Shown: in pieces, positions 2,170 to 15,307 of the stretch
Layout: every line of letters begins with the position of its first letter
Position numbering within the stretch: the first letter of the stretch is position 1
Assembly: GCA_030248195.1 (NCBI GenBank)
Contig: JASAND010028019.1
Coordinates: forward strand, 1 to 64,000
DNA from: Trissonchulus latispiculum
Taxonomy: Eukaryota > Nematoda > Enoplea > Enoplida > Ironidae
DNA length: 64,000 bases
Direction of reading: 5' to 3'
Notes under the pieces: generated by a model
What the model was told of the DNA's origin: nothing
The model's database searches: none
Seen by the model: the letters and a program-made list of their open reading frames with translations, nothing else
Position numbers and translations under genes: made by a program

Positions 2170-5056
2170 AGTTTAACATTTTGTTCATCTTCTGCTCTGA
2201 TCAGGCTCACTGACTCATGAAAATCATATTTGTTATCCCTGAGGGGTCGTGTAGTTGTTTTGCAATATATATGTATATAGCAATCGTAATCACTGTGAAA
2301 CTTTACGCTGAGTCCATAGATCCAGAGCAAATTGTAGTTCGATCAAATTTGCCGTATCAGTCGGGCTTTATGTTACCTATCTCATGGATGCAACTGTAGA
2401 AGCCGTTTGTACTGCTAATAGCTATAACAGCCAAAATGGTTTGACATTATCCCATTAACTGTTGATTAACTGTTTGACCTGACTAATCCTATTTGGCTCG
2501 AAACTATTTGAATGTTAATGTTATTGCGCTGAGGTTAGTATTAAAGCCGGAAATTGTACTATCAAAATTGCATTGGCAGCAGAGCTATATCGTAAAACAG
2601 GTTTTTAGTTCAATGGCACTGAAATGTTGAAGTCACTATTTTTGTACCAACCAACCATATCAACTGTTAGTCTGTCGATATCCAACCTTTGGTCTACATT
2701 AAACCCCCTTTTGTGCAATTTCCGAATCTTCATCCGTTAAATGCCAAACTTGACAATTTTGTAAATATTATAACAATTTAACACTTGAATATGTAAGGAT
2801 TATATAATCCTACAAGCAGCAAACTACATATTATTATATAACATATATAACATTATATAACATATTATATACATATTATATACATATTATATTATATAAC
2901 TCCTACTAGGAAACTAGCAAACTGTGGAAGTGTGTGACTACAATAATGACTGTTAGTTACATAATGAAACCTTTCGCAGGACAGGACACCAATATTAGGT
3001 GGTTTCTGTCCAATTCTATTAAGGCTGTTTTGCTGCACTACGATTGCATAGTCGTTTTTGCCAAAAAATCGCGCTATAGAACAATTTTCATAAAATTTCA
3101 AACGATTGTTCGTATAATGTTTTCTCAGCTCACCGAGATCTATAGACTGATACTAATATCCGAAAGTTTTTTGTTTTGAGTCACCTCGATCAGAATTTGT
3201 CATTTTATACCCTTTTCTGGTACCTTAGTTTAATTTTCATAATTTTGACACTTTGGCCCTCTTACAATTTACAACGAGGGATTACAAATGGTACCAATAT
3301 GGCGTTAGTTAGTCTCACTTTTAATCATTTACAACATCACCGTGTCGAATACTTTCGCATATCGCATCGAGGGTGAACTGAACCCCACAAATGAACAGGA
3401 CAAGTTCATATCTCCTACAACGCAAATGCAAATTTTAGTAGAATCGGTTAGGGTCAACCCTCGCCAAAATCAGCCCAGTTCGAATTTGACCCACCTTGAG
3501 CAGATTTTGCTATTTTTACCCCGTCGAAGCTGCATAACTGTCCTATATTTTCACGTTTGATTGCAACTTATAATTTTTTCGAGAGCTGTCGAGTGAGATT
3601 CATATTAGGCTGTTTCCGTCAATGTCAATTTCGACCATATGAAACTTTGCCGTGTCGAGTATTTCCATGCCGCATCGACAGCGGTAGCCCCAGATACTCC
3701 GAAACATTTCACCCCATCTTTTCCACATGCAAAATTTCTTACAAACCGGTCAATCGAATGTTGGGCTGCGTGAGGTGAAGTAATAATAAATAACGGACAT
3801 ACCGAAATTAAAGGGTTGCTTTTTCCAGAAAAAATGCGGCAACTTAATAAACGGACTATGTAACTGGTTACCTTTCCTTTGGAAAGTTGGGCAACATAGT
3901 AGCAAATACTTTACAGTGCAAAAAGTGAGGGGGAAGCCATGCTATAGTTAAACGAGTTAAAAAAGGACGCTTTATCTTGACTCTGCTCTAGATTGCTCTA
4001 CTCTACTCTGCTGTATATCTCCTGAAAGGCCGTGGAAAACAAGCGGTGTGCATACTTTCGCTGTGGTAACGTTGAGAATAAACATACAATTCAAATTGTT
4101 TCGTACTGGTTATCAAGTTATCATGTGAAAACCCGGGCTAAGTCGCTAACCCGGGTTTACTTGCCTATCTTTAACACATAAGTTTAGCCCGGATTTACGA
4201 CTTAACCCGGGTTTTGACGTTGATAACATTGGCCCCAGATTGACTCGAAATTTGGTCACGACATCAACTCTTAATGTTATCAACTAAGGCGTAGGTTTCC
4301 CATTATAAGATTTACCTATTGGATTCAACGTTTCGAAAGCTCAAATTCTTTTCCTGTCTGATACTGCTTTGCAGTCTCTTCAAGTCAAGTTTGTTGCATA
4401 GAATTGCTTATGTAGAGAATGGTGATCTTACACCCTAAGTTGCATACCATGGCTGTTCCCAAACAGAGCATTAAGCTAAGTGTGTGCTAACGATGGGACT
4501 TGCAACTCTAAAAAGCAACTTTGCAATCACTAACACGGGGTTGAAGTTTAGGGTTTTAATCTGACTCCGATGAGAGGTCACCTCTGAAAAATTTCAACAT
4601 CATAAAAGAGTCACCTCCAAATTTGCAAAAAAATGATCATGTTTGTATACTTTCTTGGTCAAAAATAAGTAAAAATAAAGAGCTTAGCTATTTTTAAGAT
4701 AAATTTGGCACAGTGCACATTGCACCGCCCAACCGCCCCCATTCCTTCCCCTCCCACGTTATGATTGCATACAACACCATTTTCCAAAACAATGAAACCG
4801 TTTCCAATAAATAAAAAATATTGGGTTTGCCTAAAGTGATGGAATAAATATGGGCAAAGGTATTCCTAATGGGATCTCAATAAAATCAGCCTAAACCGTA
4901 AAACCTGCCAGCATCAAATCTTACAGTTACTGGAATTTACAGTTATAAGCGGCAGACCGGAGTATATGTGTAACTAGTATGGCTTCGGTTGAATAATGTT
5001 TCTACGACACTTTCGCGAGTCACATAATCTCAAACCTTGTCCGATAAAATGCACTC
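2170..5056. other. intergenic, no gene recognised
   Basis: AT-rich sequence with an ATATTATATAAC-type run at about 2825-2900. There is a weak diverged repeat around 3340-3375 and 3645-3680 (GTGTCGAATACTTTC-like) and the hairpin described at 4126-4217. No convincing coding frame was seen. The 3' part probably contains the promoter and a 5' untranslated exon of the SET-domain gene, but no specific site can be supported. Confidence 0.5.
4126..4217. repeat. 92-bp inverted repeat (AACCCGGG hairpin)
   Basis: Two arms of about 36 bp, each carrying two CCCGGG or near-CCCGGG blocks (AAAACCCGGGCTAAGTCG against its inverted copy), are separated by an ~18-bp loop. Flanking TTATCA/TGATAA sequence extends the symmetry. 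It could be a tiny foldback element or a cruciform-forming site. Confidence 0.7.
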
Positions 5057-5101: not shown

Positions 5102-8100
5102 ATGAGGTCATCAATTTATACACCTGCAATAGTGCTGTTCGTTTGGCTGCACCTGTCAACAGGGATCGGAACCGGAATCATTTCCTATGACGTTGGCAAT
5201 CTGAAACTGTTGATGGAAAATCTTTGCGAATTCACTGCTAAACCAGGCAAAACTGATCATTACCTTTCGGTACTTCTGAAACTGCAGGACGAAATCAGAG
5301 ACACTCAGAAGTATTTTTCTCGCAGCTGGCATCTACCATCGGAACACCGAGAACGCAATCTGAAGACATTTTTAGAATGGGCTAAGAAAACGATATTCGT
5401 GAATGGAATTGAAGTGGCCAACATTGACGGAAAAGGCATGGGCCTGAGAGCCACCAGAGACCTCTCACCAAACACGACCATCCTAAAGGTTCCTTTGAAT
5501 GTAACACTTAGCTCTTCCGAAGCAAAAAAATCACTCAGTCCTTGCATTGGAAATATTTTCAGATTTAAGTTTGCTAAATTGAATAACTTTCGCAAACGAA
5601 TTTGGCTATCACTTTTGGTTCTGTCTAAAGTGCTAACGGAACCTCATTTGAAGCCTTACCTTGACGTCTTGCCACGAGATATAGACGTGCCGCTTTTCTA
5701 TGATTATGGTAAGTGAATTTCAAGAGCGAGAAGAAATTTTGTTTTTTAACAAAAAGAAAATTTGGGCTTCAACTATTCAACTTCAACAATGACAACCAGA
5801 ATATGTATTTCTTGGCACTAATAGGACGTCCTTAAATTTGCAGGAACAAATTATTATTAAGGTCACTACTTGTGGAAAGACAAAAATTGTATCTGTGAAA
5901 TTGCAAGACTGCTGGATGCAAATTGTACTAAGATCTATCACACTGTTTTAGATGTCCTCAGTCTACTAAAGGGAACTGATGCTTTCAAAAGGATTGTCCG
6001 AAACCGTCGACTTGTTCTGGCCACATATGCTGCTATTTATTCAAGACTGCTAGAATCTCCTAATAGATGCCTGCGCTATGGTATGTAAGTCCGGCGGTCA
6101 ATTGTTTGTTGTTATGGCATAAACTAAACAACAGATTTGAAGACACTAATGAATAATAGTCATGAAAGCGAAGCATATACCATACGTTTCATGATGTATT
6201 GTTAGTTTGAGTAGCAGTTTCATAACTTATTCCTTCACGCATTTAATGCTGTTTTATCATCACAAGTTTATCGCCATCGGCAGCCACTGAGACTTGAGAA
6301 ACCAATAATTTGGCAGCAAACACTGCTGTGTTCCTCAAAAAGCAGGAATATTTGAAAAATGCTGGTTAGAGAAAGTAAAACGAAAAGAAAGGTAAAGAAA
6401 CGAAATAATCAAAACGTAGACAACTAGAATAGAGTAGCTGCATTGGCTTTATTTTTGACTAATGCAATTAGCAATATTGCGTATTATATAAGTATTATAG
6501 CAATATAAGCAATATATGCAATATAACTATTATACAAAAATCAAATCAAATCAAATATAATATTATTACAATAATATAATGAATTAGTTTTTAAAGGTAT
6601 TACGTTGGATGCTTTTACTTTGGATGCGTTCCTGTGGGCCTACTCAATAGCTCAAACCAGAGCCGTTGGATTGCACAGAGACACAAAAATCATACCATTG
6701 TGGGATATGTCAAATCATGAAACTGGAGAAGAACATATGCGAGAATCTGTGGAAGGTATGTGCATTTTAGTTTATTCAACGTATGTAAAGTGTTAATGGT
6801 ATGATTTAACATGCTCAATTGAACGCTGTTGCATAAATTTACCCGTTCAAAATAAATAACAACAATTTCACGAGTTAGCGTTAAATAATTAAGCTATTTC
6901 TAATTTATTGCTTGAAAGCTTGTTTGGATATAAATTCATTATACCAAGGTGATCAGACGTTCATCATCTGAGTGATCTTGAACCAATCCATTTGAGCTAA
7001 AGATTTGGATTGCCGAAACTGTCTGTGCTCCTCTGCAATGACAATAGCTAGTCATTCATAACACCCTATGGAAAAGACAAAGTCAGATGTGAATTATGTG
7101 AAACAATGATCCTGGACCCCGAGCATAGTAGTGAATCTATTGGCGCCAGCATAACTAATTAGACACCATCTATGCAAGTGCTTTAATTTTAATATTACTA
7201 AACTGTTTTAAGCAGTAAGCTATAGCTTGTATTTACGAAATATTCTTGCTTTAGATGTCAAAACATCCAACCCCTACTTTATCTCTTGGGTAAACTCTGC
7301 CGTGTCGAAAGGAGAAGAAGTGTTGAACTCTTATTATGGAACAGATATGGACATGGGAATTGCTTTTGAGAACTGGGCAATGGTATCTCCTACTACGGAA
7401 GTCCTTGTCTCCAGTCGGGTCGATAACCATGATCCTGAGATCACGATGAAGCTGCAGTCACTGCATCGACTTAGTTTGAGCTCCGATGTGGAATTTTGTT
7501 TATTACCATTCACTCAATCAACGCTAATTTCTCCTAAGGAGTTTAGGATACTATTAACACTTGCAACAGGTTCTACTGGTTTTTGGTTAGGTGTGCAACA
7601 CACGTGTACTTGGAGGCTGAGACTGAGGATATGACCATCACATTGCCACGGCAGTACGTATATCAAAAGATATTGAGTACACAACCCAAGCAAAATTCCT
7701 CAAATAGGGCTCATTCAATATTTTGCTCCCGGAATTCCATAGAATATTTCAGGCGTAAAAACGGCTAGCTGCATTCCAACCAATCCAGCTTGATACCCTG
7801 GAATGGGCGATACTAAGGCAGACGCACACCTGAGCGTAACTTTCGCAAAACTTAACCGATTTAATTCAAATTTGGTATGGATGCATTTGAACACATTTCT
7901 GATCGATCTGCAGCAAAATTTTAAAATTTTAAAAATTTTAAATTTTTAAGTTTTCCAAGGGGGGACCAAGGGAAACCAAAACATTTTATGTCTCCGATTT
8001 CGCTGAAAAGTTGCATACAGGGGTTTTCTTGGTCGCTGAGCACGAATCTGAAAACCGTTTTTCGATCCAGCTTTTCGTTAGCTAAATATAAGCTTAAACA

Positions 8101-9509
8101 TTAAGCTTACAACTTTAGCTTATTTCTAGCTAACGAAAAGCTGGATCCAAAAACGGTTTTCAGATTCGTGCTCAGCGACCAAGAAAACCCCTATATGCAA
8201 CTTTTCAGCGAAATCGGAGACAAAAAATGTTTTGGTTTCCCTTGGTCCCCCCTTGGAAAACTTAAAAATTTAAAATTTTTAAATTTTTAAAATTTTGCTG
8301 CAGATCGATCAGAAATGAGTTTAAATGCATCCATACCAAATTTGAACTAAATCGGTTAAGTTTTGCGAAAGTTACGCTCAGGTGTGCGTCTGCCTTAGTA
8401 TCGCCCCTGGAATGTTCCAGGTTAATTCTAGGCTGAAAGATTCCAACTGTGCCAACACAATTCCGTAAAATGACTGAACCTAAGCACAGTCTAAGCCATA
8501 TCTAAGCTCAAATCCGACAAGTTGGTTCAATTACGTTTAAAGCTATCGTGTCTTAGCACAGTCTAAGCTTCATCTAAGCTTAAATTCAAAAACTTGGCTG
8601 AATTCTGCGACAGGTTTACGTGTCTGAGCCCATTTAGCAGGATTCCATTCACGCCAGCAAGTTTCTCTGGCGTTGGTTTGGACTAAACTGGACAGTGCAC
8701 TTATAGCCATGCCTGCTCAATTTCGTGGAAACATTTTGAGGCAAAACTTAGCTTGAGTATCGTTGCAGAGTCATGCTTGGTTTGTGTACTCAGTTTCTTG
8801 TGATGACCTACAGGACCTTCCTGAACAGTGGAGTCGTTCACCTCAAACAAATGTTTAGGTTTTTTGATCGGAATGCTGCCGGTCGCTGGATGTTGTCAAA
8901 AGACAAATCTAAAGACAATTGTCATTAAAAACGAAACATTTAGATATGGTGTAAAGTTGACAGAAAATTTGTAGAGAATTGTGCAAATTTTGTCGTTTAC
9001 ACAGTTTTATTTATTCGTGACATTCTTCCCAACTGACTACATTCAGAAAGCCGTACACTCCCAACAGCATAGTGAATTTTGAAATGACAATTTTTGGAGT
9101 TAGGTATTGGCAAACAAATTCCTTAACAATTCTCAACAGGAAGGAGTTTCTATTTAGTTGTTGCACAGTGCGCCAATGATTTGATTGGTAATTCAAAAAG
9201 ACAATAGAAGTATCTTCGCAGCTGTTTCGTATTTTTACAGGGAAAACGAAGATTGAAGGTCATGAAACTTTTGCAAAATCATGGGAGTATTTGGATGATT
9301 TGATTGAGCTGAAGCTATCCGCCTATCCACGATCCTTGGATGAAAATCGTCGCCTGTTAGAATCTCCGGATCTTAGTCCGATGGCTTATTTAGCTGTGCA
9401 ATTCATTGTTGTTGAGCAAATAGCCTTGGAAACATCTAGGCAAAAATGTCGCCAGTTGGCTGACGGCCCAATAATCGATGTATTGGATAAGAAGCGTTTA
9501 AAATACTAA
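5102..9509 (+). CDS. SETD3-like SET-domain protein methyltransferase
   Basis: Five exons were reconstructed: 5102-5708, 5862-6080, 6597-6755, 7255-7569 and 9241-9509, giving 522 codons plus stop, with every intron in phase 1. The protein matches SETD3 and the related plant SET/Rubisco methyltransferases. It has GKGMGLRATRDL at about residues 110-121 (start of the SET fold), a PYLDVLPRD segment at 185-193, IIPLWDMSNH at 307-316 (the Asn-His cofactor motif) and NSYYGTD at 353-359 (the catalytic Tyr region). A C-terminal helical Rubisco-substrate-binding-like domain includes SWEYLDDLIELKL. Animal SETD3 methylates a histidine of actin; whether this protein does is inferred from similarity. The 5862 acceptor was chosen because the nearer CAG at 5841-5843 would put a TAA in frame. 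A consensus acceptor just before the ATG (TTGTTGCAG) suggests a 5' untranslated exon. Unusually, residues 8-20 are hydrophobic and resemble a signal peptide. Human SETD3 is somewhat longer (594 aa). Confidence 0.88.
7805..8405. mobile_element. 601-bp foldback MITE in intron 4
   Basis: A near-perfect palindrome whose arms begin GGGCGATACTAAGGCAGACG and extend for almost half the element, meeting near 8105. It is flanked by CCTGGAAT at 7797-7804 and 8406-8413, an 8-bp duplication suggesting hAT-type insertion. It lies in the last intron of the SETD3-like gene and leaves the splice sites untouched. Its ends resemble those of the element at 42-2168. Confidence 0.82.
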
Positions 9510-11319: not shown

Positions 11320-12395
11320 ACTTTATCTTCTAGACACAACGGCCTTCCTTCCTTCTGTAAACGTTAGTCGGGACGGAAAACCCCACATCCAAACCAGGAA
11401 TGAAGGCAAAGGGCGTCTTCGTTGTCGGCCAAGTCTGACAGGGCGCGGTGCCGGTTCATCCGGAGGAATCACTAGATTCGGAACCTCAGGATTTATGTCT
11501 TGAAAGGCTCCATTTCCAAAAGCATAGGCAAACTCTTCGTCGTCAGTGTTCAAGCTTGTTGACCTGGTAGCTCTTGCTCTTGTCTGTTTTTGCCCTACAT
11601 CCACACACTCCCGTCTGCGGAGTTGGTTTCTATGCCTTTTCCAGATTGTCTTTTCCACCTTCACCTGATACATTCGAGACCCTGTTGTAGATACAGTTTA
11701 CGGGACCCAAGTAAATCCCGTACCCACACCTTGTCATCTTCCATGAATGCTCCCAGAGCTGGCCCTCCAAACCTTCTTTTGGAGGGGCCAGCTCTGGGAG
11801 CATTCATGGAAACCTCTGTCACAACCGAGAGCCGAGTACGCAACCATCTTCCAAACACAGCTTCTGCTGATGATATGCGTGTTGTTGCATGGGAGTAATG
11901 CTAGTTGAGCAGGAATTGGTGAAGGTCCTGTTGCAGAGACGGCCTAGGAACGTGCTTCGCTATTTTCTTGAAGGTTTGAATAAAACCTTCGGCCAGACCT
12001 TTGGACGCAGGCTAGTAAGGAGGAGAGAAGAGGTGTGGGATTCCGTTTTTCAAGCAGAAGTTTTTGAACTCTGCAGATGTGATAACGGAACCATTATCGG
12101 AAACCAGGACTTTAGGTAACCCAAAACGAGAGAAAAATTCTCCATCTCGAAACTTCGACCTAGAAGCGCTAGAAGTGAAGAGCATGTTTTCATAAGTTTT
12201 TCCACCGAATAGAGGATCCGTTGTAGCCTTTTAAGCACACAGAGCTCAGGATTAACGAAATGTCTGGGAACGGCTTTGTCCAAAGACTGAGAGAGCATAT
12301 AGAAATAGCAGCCCCGGTGTCTAGCTCCATCTGTATAATTTGTACTTTTCAGAATTGTAAAAATTCTCCGCAATGCCGACAGGATAGAAATCATT
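11320..12395 (-). pseudogene. Decayed Ty3/Gypsy pol: protease and integrase
   Basis: Read on the - strand, 12330-12200 holds a retropepsin start with MELDTGAAISIC (the catalytic DTG). The frame then breaks. From about 12140 to 11810 there is an integrase core with [12 protein letters not shown] (second catalytic Asp) and GLAEGFIQTF (region of the catalytic Glu). From 11740 to 11323 comes the integrase C-terminal module with DDKVWVRDL and WKRHRNQLRRRE. There are several stops and frameshifts. Reverse transcriptase and RNase H are missing: protease is followed by integrase within about 100 bp, so an internal deletion is likely. A hairpin insertion lies at 11741-11809. Confidence 0.8.
11741..11809. 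repeat. Near-perfect 28/29-bp hairpin in integrase relic
   Basis: CCATGAATGCTCCCAGAGCT starts the left arm and its exact reverse complement ends the right arm. There is a 12-nt loop and a single 1-nt bulge. It lies inside the Gypsy integrase relic, between the core and the C-terminal module, and so is an added inverted duplication. Confidence 0.85.
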
Positions 12396-12479
12396 CGAGA
12401 GCTCTTAACGAGAAGAAAACTTTTGTAATAGAATGAACTTTTGAATATTAACGCAACTTCCGGAACACATGGTAGTAGG

Positions 12480-12790
12480 TATAAAACCCGGGTTCTAAAG
12501 CAAATCTGGAGCCATATTTAATGTAAATGTCCGGGTCCCCAAACCTCTCCCTATTACAAAATGGCAACTTAATTCAGGTGCCTTCTTGGCACCTGAAACT
12601 GGTTTCAGGATTCACAAGACAAGCTAGGCACGTTTCGACCCCTACCACGAGGTCTCATCAGACGGCTTGAGGCTACAGCTTATCTTTTTCTTTTTTATTT
12701 TATTTAATCAAACAACATAGTATAAAATAGCGATCATAACAAACTATGCTTTAACGTATACAAGATACATACTAACATTTTTCTTATTAT
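12480..12790 (-). repeat. Dispersed repeat, copy 1 (inverse of 42.45-42.73 kb)
   Basis: Shares blocks with 42450-42730 in the opposite direction, including GCACCTGAA.., GGGAGAGGTTTGGGGACCCG, TCGAAACGTG and AACCCGGGTTTTATACCTAC. The ...CTCGTGG..TCGAAACG.. segment resembles 3' ends shared by many LINE and SINE families. No ORF. Confidence 0.7.
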
Positions 12791-13219
12791 TCAACATATG
12801 TGCAACTTCTTTTACTGGAACATGCCCAACTTCCATCATTCCAGAGGTAAGCAGATCCGACTTTCCATAGTTTATAGTAATAGATATTCTACTTTTACCA
12901 TTGAGGAGGTCATTTAACCTGTGTAACCCAAAAATTTGTACTCATGTTTGAATAGTCATCAAACTGTTCCGAGCGGATCCCAAAAGATTCCGTGCTAAAG
13001 TTGTAATAAGACATTATGAATCAGATTATGTAAAACAAATAGCCTCCTCTCTTTTATTAATTCAATAAATACCCTCCCAGGTCTACTCAAATAACATGCA
13101 GAATGAAGATTTCATTTCATGTGTTCACTTAGCACTCTCCCAAATCCCGCGGATACGCATCCAATTCAATAAGACTGTAAAGATACGAAGCATTATTAGA
13201 GAGGGTTTGGTATGACTTG

Positions 13220-13360
13220 GCCCAACTCTGAAGTGGCCCAATAATTATGATTGGTTCTTTACAAATTCAACTATTCCAATCAAATGTAAATAACGGACAC
13301 ATACGCGTGCGTTATACAGTCGTATACTTGTGCATTAGATCAAACTGGTGAATATATATA

Positions 13361-13410
<50 letters not shown>

Positions 13411-13795
13411 GAAACGTTTATTTAAAAATGCATAATTGTATATAAATTTGGAGGAACTTATTTAAAAATGGTTTTAATTTTTAGTTAGGTGTGTAAGTTT
13501 GAATGTGAATTTTGCAAGACATTTCACGTTAATGGATTGTTGGAATGAATTTTATTGTGGGTTATTTTATTTTTATTGGGCAGATACAGATCCTACAAAA
13601 ATGACCAGTTTAAGTTTGTTAATTTAAAATTAAAAAACACAGTTTTACAGCATCTTTAAAGAAAATTTTGTAAGTAGTCCCCTCCGCTCATTTCTATTTT
13701 CAAGTAATAAAAGCTACCGTAAGACATTCCCTCTTTAATAAAGTGGGCGGGGCTTAGCAATTTAAATGACAGTTGGGCCAGTTCAGAGTTGGGCT
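13220..13795. repeat. Foldback repeat containing a (TA)n tract
   Basis: Inverted ends CCCAACTCTGAAGTGGCCCA (13221-13240) and TGGGCCAGTTCAGAGTTGGG (13774-13793). A (TA)n run lies at 13353-13408. No coding sequence. It sits immediately 3' of the TBP-like relic and may be an independent MITE. Confidence 0.6.
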
Positions 13796-13999
13796 AAACA
13801 AGAATACACCTTAGAGAGTGTGTAAAAGATCCTGAAGAATTTTCCGAAGATGCTTTCTATCTAAATACAGTAATATTATGGAAGAAATTTGATAGAGTCA
13901 TTGGTAGAACACAGGATGGAAATCCCTGCAGATCTATTCGAGTCGTGTCCAATGAAGAAGAAGACTTTGTAGTAACTGCATTTCCAGTATAATTATTTT

Positions 14000-14492
14000 C
14001 TAAACAATAGACATTTGCGTACAACAATGCGTGCAAGTGTATGGATTGATTGTTCATTATATAGTCCAGTAATAAAGAATTTTCCATTATGAAAGAGTCG
14101 AATTGTTCCACATTTTGTTTCCATAGTAGACCACTGTATAGTTCAGACTCCATACTGACAATACAATTTTCATTAAGATGCTCATACAGTCCATTGAGAT
14201 TCACATCAAAGCCGTTATGGTGTGACAATACCAAGTTAGCAGTTGACATTGAAACAATATTCCTTTAAATCATATGAGCTAGCTGTTGAGAACAGGTCTC
14301 TCCCTTAGAAATGCTCTTCGCTCCCAAGCATCCAAAGCTTCCGGTTGTAAACAGAAGAAAAGTGCAACCATCATGCGAAAGCACTCCTCCACTAAATCTT
14401 CCAGGATTATAAGCAATGCCGGGTATAGTTCCAACATGTAGACAAGCATCAAATTTACCCTTTATGACAGCGTTTACAATCTGCATCTGCAT
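14000..14492 (-). pseudogene. TBP-like gene (two repeats), decayed
   Basis: The first frame (14492-14265, 75 codons) matches the first TATA-binding-protein repeat: QIVNAVIKGKFD, YNPGRFSGGVL, FLLFTTGSFGCLGAKS. A TAA at 14267-14265 ends it. The same frame resumes at once, and 14243-14110 matches the start of the second repeat: NLVLSHHNGFDVNLNGL, ESELYSGLLW. Near 14109 the match shifts frame and goes on with TIRLFHNGKFFITG, the equivalent of the repeat-2 IFVSGKVVLTGAK strand, to about 14000. Both halves of the TBP saddle are therefore present, with one stop and one frameshift. The ATG overlaps the 3' end of the protease gene by 38 nt. TBP positions RNA polymerases at promoters; here it would be an element-encoded factor, which is inference. 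The host TBP is a different gene, since this copy is highly diverged. Confidence 0.8.
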
Positions 14493-14940
14493 GATTGCCC
14501 AATGTGAGTATGTCTAACGACACGTAGTTTGTCAACGAAGCGTTTGACAACTGAGTCATCTTTCTCTCGCTTTTCCTTAAATAGTCTACGATTTCCCCAA
14601 AAGCACGCCCTCGCGCACGTTTATACAAAAAGTAAATACAATATTCACCGCATACATTAGTATCAAAGTCTTGCAAACAATAACTATTTACAATTTCCGG
14701 TTTAAACCGGTTACATTCCTGAATAGGATCTAAGCCATAACTATCAAAGTATTCTACATAACAGTCAAAATACACTAGAACCCAATTTTTCCCAGGCCAA
14801 GTTGATGGATCTGTGTTGACAATAAAACGTGCGGGTCGATGAGTCACAGCCGGTAATTGATCACAAGCGGAAACACCCATAAAATGTTTCCTTAGGTATT
14901 TATCCATTTGAATAGTTTCCAATATTTCAATAGTATTCAT
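14455..14940 (-). CDS. Polinton/adenovirus-type cysteine protease (PRO)
   Basis: 161 codons, intact frame. It matches the adenain-like proteases of Polintons: RPARFIVNTDPSTWPGKNW, EYFDSYG (Asp of the triad, D66), SYCLQ (oxyanion Gln, Q90) and NVCGEYC (nucleophile Cys, C97). The usual catalytic His just before the Trp is Asn here (PGKNW, N52), so activity is doubtful. The ATG overlaps the stop of the capsid gene as ATGA, and the 3' end overlaps the TBP-like gene. Such proteases mature capsid proteins in the related viruses. Confidence 0.85.
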   Translation of the reverse strand: MNTIEILETIQMDKYLRKHFMGVSACDQLPAVTHRPARFIVNTDPSTWPGKNWVLVYFDCYVEYFDSYGLDPIQECNRFKPEIVNSYCLQDFDTNVCGEYCIYFLYKRARGRAFGEIVDYLRKSERKMTQLSNASLTNYVSLDILTLGNHADADCKRCHKG

Positions 14941-15227
14941 ATTGAGTAGTCAAAAAAGGGTGTCCTGTTGTAATCAATAGAAATCAAATTTTCAAATTCT
15001 TCGTATATAATCAATTCAACTCCCTGTGCATTAGTGGTAGAAAGTGGTTTGGTCAGTTGCATGTAAAGGGATAAATCACCTTCTCTTATTAATTCCATTG
15101 CTCCTCCATCCACATTATCAGCAGTCAGATCAAAAACAAATATGGTGTAACCGTTTGAAAAATCCTTGTATGAAATATCTAACCCTCTATCACTATGAGC
15201 CATGTTACATCCCTCATACAGATGCAT
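14937..15227 (-). pseudogene. Polinton capsid protein, C-terminal part
   Basis: 96 codons to a natural stop. The segment with FVFDLTAD, LIREGDLSLYMQL, ELIIYEEFENLISIDYNR and a final DYS matches the C-terminus of the Polinton/adintovirus capsid family (often annotated F54H12.2-like, probably the major jelly-roll capsid protein). The upstream frame is closed by a TGA five codons before the first ATG, and a 1-kb TTAA element lies 77 bp further upstream, so the N-terminal three quarters or more is missing. The stop overlaps the protease ATG. Confidence 0.75.
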
Positions 15228-15307
15228 GTAATGCGTCCGTCAATATAACGTTAGCAGACGATGTTAAGAAACTATGTGAATTTAGCAGCTTTTTATTATG
15301 AATTTAA

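Follow-up and report, generated by a model that had tools for sequence, protein, structure and literature searches.

The window, by which we mean the whole 64,000-nucleotide stretch of Trissonchulus latispiculum DNA that was analysed, contains a decayed, end-truncated Polinton in which a gene for a TATA-binding protein (TBP) lies close to the element end. Inward from the terminus at 12474 this copy carries the TBP gene, an adenain-type protease gene and the C-terminus of the capsid gene, up to a break at 15231; the remaining Polinton genes are absent from it, that is, from 12474 to 15231. The features are as follows:

12474..13206, minus strand: terminal segment, its outer end beginning AGTAGGTATAAAA (from alignment to other copies)
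13207..13810, no strand: insertion of about 604 bp with a TA-rich repeat inside (a gap in other copies)
13811..15231, minus strand: internal segment, ending in a break at 15231, with TBP, protease and capsid C-terminus (about 95% identical to L004, L005, L007 and L008)
13999..14127, minus strand: TBP repeat 2, C-terminal end, after a change of frame (PF00352, E 0.002, 18.4 bits, below cut-off)
14128..14264, minus strand: linker and start of TBP repeat 2, in the frame of repeat 1 past the stop (matching part of the open frames of other copies)
14265..14267, minus strand: in-frame stop TAA splitting the TBP relic
14268..14492, minus strand: TBP repeat 1 from the first ATG (PF00352, E 1.5e-7, over cut-off; 1d3u, E 5e-7)
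14458..14940, minus strand: adenain-type cysteine protease ORF, into which the TBP start reaches (37 of 39 candidates homologous at E<=1)
14943..15231, minus strand: major capsid protein, C-terminal piece (identity with the capsid ORFs of L004-L010 is 92-94%)

The terminal segment is 86-90% identical to its counterpart in 11 of the 13 loci compared, with 82% identity over part of it in L014 and a short match only in L015. Its outer boundary, AGTAGGTA, is the same in all 11 sequences shown, for the one terminus looked at, and a TATAAAA starts 7 nt inside it in nine of these 11 copies; Polintons end in AG. The insertion at 13207-13810, perhaps a short retroposon, has a duplication of about 11 bp at its junctions, with about 11 bp of the other copies matching both sides. 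The protease ORF, itself without a Pfam match, has 35 of its 37 relatives at E<1e-3, and 13 of the 37 have precomputed PF00770, so that its labelling as adenain-type in the earlier note is correct; it shows an Asn at a column where 16 other rows have His. An integrase-like ORF at 12015-12230 (minus strand) was rejected as a Polinton gene because it is situated beyond the element terminus at 12474; it is what remains of an integrase core (32.1 bits with PF00665, below the cut-off of 32.6), probably from a retroelement.

That a TBP-like minus-strand frame starts within the 3' end of the protease gene had been proposed in an earlier note, made from the letters of the window, and is borne out by profile search. 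The first ATG of the TBP ORF, at 14492, comes shortly before the protease ORF (14458-14940) ends, and PF00352 matches the 82-residue frame at 14268-14513 above its cut-off (31.5 bits against 22.9), with residues 10-81 of the frame corresponding to profile positions 2-81. The residues that had been singled out, YNPGRFSGG, FTTGSFGCLGAKS, ELYSGLLW and FHNGKFFITG, are all present in the translations. The attribution of both halves to TBP stands by profile for repeat 1 and falls short for the final part of repeat 2, where the piece at 13999-14127, 43 residues long, stays under the cut-off at 18.4 bits; the middle piece (14001-14264) has no Pfam match by itself, and the sequence matching it is read through in one frame by the open frames of other copies. 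Among the NCBIfam models, repeat 1 weakly matches ten for TBP and one that is unrelated, all far below their cut-offs, and the end piece one for TBP, also far below. In the PDB at E<=1, repeat 1 finds 34 sequences, which bear TBP, TFIID or TBP-fusion names but for one ECU04_1440 protein and the best of which are archaeal (1d3u, E 5e-7); the end piece has four marginal matches, led by a leucine-rich repeat protein and including one TBP. Structure prediction of repeat 1 without an alignment gave a mean pLDDT of 40, which is uninformative. A TBP profile match is thus present at this locus, and the corresponding ORF of intact copies belongs to the TBP family rather than to an unrelated one, these being the two points on which the reading had been made to depend. 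The broken gene is confirmed as a TBP relic from a Polinton-type element.

The finding is far larger than the window: in the 734-Mb genome assembly that contains it, related copies number in the hundreds, and in many of them a reading frame is open. A search with window repeat 1 scored the best 150 of 691 candidates as matches, the best non-self ones at 94% identity and in 173-aa open frames; with PF00352 the best 150 of 1271 candidates were scored, all over the cut-off; and with a third TBP lineage 150 of 151 matches are listed (870 candidates), many of them shared with the PF00352 search. Merged, these give at least 354 distinct loci on 339 contigs, with the window copy included, the host gene left out and some broken or partial copies among them, a number that is a lower bound because scoring covered the best candidates only. 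The earlier note had advised looking for copies in which an open frame directly follows the protease on its 3' side, and this same genome contains such copies. Four of them (L004, L005, L007 and L008), each with an open TBP frame, are 99.6-99.9% identical over 2.9 kb and have unlike flanks, which indicates that they inserted recently. The host TBP is a separate, intron-bearing gene on contig C14517, 87% identical to human TBP, and the two best matches of the PF00352 genome search are exons of it; TFIIB is not multicopy (one match among six candidates). At L030 and L046 and on contigs C1659, C10458 and C16677, TBP genes occur in pairs of opposite orientation about 0.5-3.5 kb apart, looking as if two element ends had fused.

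At least four groups of Polinton-type elements, here called A to D, carry the TBP gene as a regular component in this genome. Our view of group A, with its order capsid-protease-TBP, comes from 48 loci, a non-random set drawn from the best 150 of the repeat 1 search (the window copy, seven others and 40 chosen across lengths and identities). By BLAST with the window ORFs, a protease is nearby in 46 of the 48 and a capsid piece in 41; by profiles trained on some of the same copies, all three genes are found in 43. In eight of nine lineage representatives TBP begins before the protease ORF has ended, L025 being the exception. With this same gene context recurring from copy to copy, and PF00352 matching twice per open frame, the assignment of the gene to a Polinton-type element in the earlier note is upheld. 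Scored against the double jelly-roll family PF21738, the capsid ORF of L005 reaches 27.8 bits (cut-off 27) and three others 15.9-26.2 bits; the protease ORFs exceed the PF00770 cut-off in one case of four, with 12.5-18.5 bits for the rest. A genome search for type B DNA polymerase (PolB, PF03175) scored 77 of 935 candidates, with 158 matches, and in all seven contigs common to both lists, every one of group A, PolB lies 9317-10376 bases upstream of the TBP gene on the same strand; the other 70 of the 77 PolB contigs have no TBP among the matches listed, which says nothing firm about TBP-less elements.

Groups B to D rest on other genes, since no match to the protease profile was seen in the 3-kb stretches of 30 loci from the PF00352 search. 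The order is integrase, TBP (PF00352, E 2.1e-37), minor-capsid-like ORF and capsid ORF in group B (L056), and NADAR (E 9.8e-40), TBP (E 1.7e-38), small minor-capsid-like ORF and capsid ORF in group C (L061). In group D the TBP (E 1.9e-30) shares its contig with an ATPase-like ORF and an integrase on the opposite strand, the TBP having been scanned in L062 and the neighbours taken from L065 and L083. An rve integrase with a chromodomain was found in groups B and D (L056 and L083; in L056, PF00665 E 3.8e-12 and Chromo E 2.7e-10), and the only sign of an FtsK/A32-type packaging ATPase is a sub-threshold Pox_A32 match in L083 (13.2 bits). The capsid ORFs of group B match those of group C (E 1e-12 and 4e-30 in single comparisons), the small minor-capsid-like ORFs of the two groups also match (E 1e-6), and the L061 capsid matches the group A capsid profile. 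The capsid ORFs of L061 and L053 (group B, partial) have no Pfam match and match each other; the 'minor capsid' label of the small ORFs is read from gene position.

Several further ORFs lie beside these TBP genes. The NADAR gene of group C (PF08719; L061:1985-2572, minus strand) is directly upstream of the TBP gene, and by eye the same neighbour is seen at L060:792-1262 (plus strand) and at L085:364-1200 (minus strand), where NADAR and TBP share one frame; in the literature searched, no paper mentions both Polinton and NADAR. At L084:504-1499 (plus strand) a single open frame fuses TBP to what appears to be the next, minor-capsid-like gene. Opposite-strand ORFs with endings like DFVVTAYPV flank the TBP gene at L005:799-1221 (plus strand), L072:1922-2308 (plus strand) and L062:966-1337 (minus strand), the two scanned being without a Pfam match. 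Two small ORFs, L062:2323-2832 and L053:2571-2942 (both minus strand), look alike and are death-fold-like by eye, the former without a significant Pfam match.

The open frames scanned all encode TBP homologues. PF00352 matches twice per protein in all 13 open frames scanned (ten of group A and three of groups B-D), at E 1.2e-19 to 1.7e-38, and a profile of 19 group A TBPs retrieves 35 PDB sequences at E<=0.001 (best E 9.8e-27), which, except for one ECU04_1440 protein, have TBP, TFIID or TBP-fusion names. Like cellular and archaeal TBPs they have two PF00352 repeats, a core of about 165 aa and four aromatic positions, which we take to be, in role and place, the DNA-intercalating phenylalanines of TBP. 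Three of these positions are F in all 20 element rows and the fourth is F in 12, Y in seven and L in one, so that all four are kept in 19 of 20 rows, the lone L being that of the fused ORF in L084. The second Glu of the YEPEL motif is acidic throughout (18 E and 2 D in 20 rows), and the first is kept in 16 rows and lost in four. Unlike cellular and archaeal TBPs, they have shortened loops, fall outside the cellular group in the tree (below) and are only 24-37% identical to the sequences of the host, human, E. cuniculi and two archaea; identity to the host TBP is 25-31%, or 25-34% for near-full-length rows in another alignment.

The element TBPs are under purifying selection. Among copies whose open frames reach at least 150 aa, compared in pairs that are not independent, the median dN/dS of TBP is 0.210 at dS <0.05 (46 pairs), 0.244 at 0.05-0.2 (69 pairs), 0.158 at 0.2-0.5 (111 pairs) and 0.134 at 0.5-1.0 (28 pairs). 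At dS >1 the medians rise to 0.30-0.46 (596 pairs), and these deep comparisons are of no help because 1428 of the 2278 TBP pairs are saturated. For the same four bands the medians are 0.251, 0.188, 0.075 and 0.080 in the protease and 0.034, 0.072, 0.052 and 0.172 in the capsid, TBP being less constrained than either in most bands.

In a tree of 26 rows, with the host, human, E. cuniculi and three archaea as the cellular TBPs, the latter group together (93/91), separate from the element TBPs. Groups A, C and D fall together (96/94, starred) and group B stands alone (99/100, starred), each element group forming one side of a branch, with a support of only 81/75 for group A; given the rooting, the long branches (L084 and P. 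woesei) and the small outgroup, the number and date of acquisitions are not read from this tree. The element TBP, at its low identity to the host protein and outside the cellular group, does not nest with animal TBP.

Present in hundreds of copies and in four element contexts, the TBP offers a handle on how Polintons control the transcription of their virion genes, being a single small protein with a measurable DNA target and partners. The copy number and the open frames suggest that these elements bring their own promoter-recognition protein. We consider it probable that the Polinton-borne TBP picks element promoters and recruits host TFIIB and Pol II for the virion genes. The protein would be produced in the active phase of the element and would settle on TATA-like promoters of the element DNA through the usual saddle and aromatic intercalation; once bound, it would recruit host TFIIB and RNA polymerase II, and the virion genes would thereby be transcribed on the element's terms. 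Such a promoter-picking role, handed on to host TFIIB and Pol II, fits because of the DNA-contact residues, the linkage to virion genes and integrase, and the unmultiplied TFIIB. For its DNA binding, promoter choice, timing and partners we thus argue from sequence, namely from homology, genomic context, copy number and the conservation and purifying selection seen in key residues and in the gene. The earlier note had gone further and suggested that late transcription might be host-independent, which finds no support in that form: as TFIIB does not occur here in multiple copies, the element presumably depends on Pol II and TFIIB of the host. As to promoter signals, TATAWA occurs in 13 of 31 windows upstream of element genes against 12 of 61 coding control windows, a modest excess, and no TATA-like site there is common to more than five of nine lineages. 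An Ile codon creating a TATATA ahead of the protease start is ATA in many lineages, the site having been picked after it was seen.

The element TBP might instead be an architectural factor in integration or end replication, which bends element or target DNA for the integrase or marks the termini instead of starting transcription. In favour of this, TBP immediately follows the chromodomain integrase in L056 (group B), the terminus carries TATAAAA in most copies, and in yeast the integration of Ty3 uses the TBP-containing TFIIIB. However, the neighbours in groups A and C are virion genes or NADAR, not integrase, in the loci examined, and a pure DNA bender would not need the acid found at the putative TFIIB-contact position in 20 of 20 rows. 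We hold this alternative to be unlikely, and retain it because a TATAAAA by the terminus suggests a promoter role and an end role alike. Still less likely is that it acts as a decoy, which competes with host TBP for DNA, TFIIA, TFIIB or TAFs and so damps host transcription or defence. An identity to host TBP as low as that observed would leave the surface contacts free to change, but the DNA-intercalating positions are retained, the gene is linked to virion genes in groups A-C, and the complete DNA surface formed by both repeats would be superfluous in a protein that does no more than compete.

It is very improbable that the gene was recently captured from the host TBP or is a functionless passenger pseudogene, even though the window copy itself is broken. 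We reject the capture because an identity to host TBP of just 25-31% is incompatible with it; moreover, the host gene is separate and intron-bearing and 87% identical to human TBP, and the cellular TBPs stand apart from the element TBPs in the tree. An isolated pseudogene is likewise rejected on account of the hundreds of copies and of dN/dS medians of 0.13-0.24 at dS up to 1. Chance resemblance or an assembly artefact, in favour of which nothing speaks but the low-scoring second half of the window copy, can be dismissed as next to impossible, with 13 of 13 open frames far over the PF00352 cut-off, TBP loci on 339 contigs and a TFIIB that is not multiplied along with them.

If the Polinton-borne TBP indeed selects element promoters for the host polymerase, a counterpart in role would be ORF24 of KSHV, a TBP mimic which provides virus-specific late promoter recognition with host Pol II and in which conserved TBP-like phenylalanines are required (PMC12529657). 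ORF24 is described there as lacking the TFIIB-contact acids, and it may not interact directly with TFIIB (PMC12529657); the element TBPs, in contrast, are direct PF00352 homologues with an acid at the second Glu of YEPEL in every row. Virus-encoded TBPs are also a feature of mirusviruses, where one study gives 59% of genomes (PMC10132985), and of some algal giant viruses, for which TFIIB is listed too (PMC12085832, PMC4602308); in a green alga, TBPs lie in endogenous elements of putative mirusvirus origin, apart from Polinton-like viruses (PMC10675990). The likeness of our elements to giant viruses and mirusviruses is one of gene content, and whereas those viruses have large genomes, with TFIIB listed for the algal ones, the elements are small and TFIIB is not multicopy.

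With Polintons/Mavericks and adintoviruses the elements share a double jelly-roll capsid match, an adenain-type protease, an rve-chromodomain integrase, a type B DNA polymerase at a fixed distance and a terminus beginning AG; unlike Polintons as described, they carry a TBP gene. The Polinton gene set is without a TBP in one description (PMC4028283), and the terms TATA and TBP are absent from the main text of three further papers (PMC11071296, PMC11071308, PMC10120064). The literature having been searched incompletely, a TBP in Polintons is unreported among the matches listed, which is short of proof of absence. Polintons are considered ancestral to most eukaryotic dsDNA viruses (PMC7805220), and the element TBPs therefore bear on the origin of those of giant viruses, mirusviruses and herpesviruses. 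We would go further only tentatively, with a confidence somewhat short of even, and suggest that the Polintons here possess a promoter-recognition system of their own, in which an old, virus-specific TBP family licenses late genes on host Pol II and has been inherited through several element groups, remaining under selection while its place changed. If this is true, the Polintons here would stand out for their small size among eukaryotic DNA viruses that encode a genuine TBP, and might form a link to the TBPs that giant viruses and mirusviruses carry.

Searches beyond this genome bear on the distribution of the family. A set of 5.8 billion proteins yielded no TBP relative (3 and 12 word candidates), with the decayed window copy as the only query, and viral contigs yielded none with the window TBP piece or with TBP alignments A2 and A3. 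Scans of viral contigs with the window protease, the capsid piece and a distant protease gave no lead, and phage records held none of the group B integrase. A protease alignment found a single viral contig, L001, with a protease and then an ATPase-like ORF, and no TBP by eye. TBP alignment A4 found L086 only (IMG/VR contig IMGVR_UViG_3300027784_001594), whose 170-aa, archaeal-looking TBP at 2666-3178 (plus strand) has no Polinton gene noticed nearby.

Finally, the surroundings of the element in the window and the genome at large show some minor features. A near-perfect inverted repeat occupies 7805-8406 of the window, its 293-nt arms 97% complementary and separated by a 16-nt spacer. A eukaryotic gene lies in pieces between 5 and 9.5 kb, with a Rubisco-LSMT-type match over the cut-off and a weak SET match. 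The sequence itself makes an animal host probable, through the 87% identity of the host TBP to human TBP and through two COX1-like stretches elsewhere in the genome, which have few stops left when read under the invertebrate mitochondrial code.
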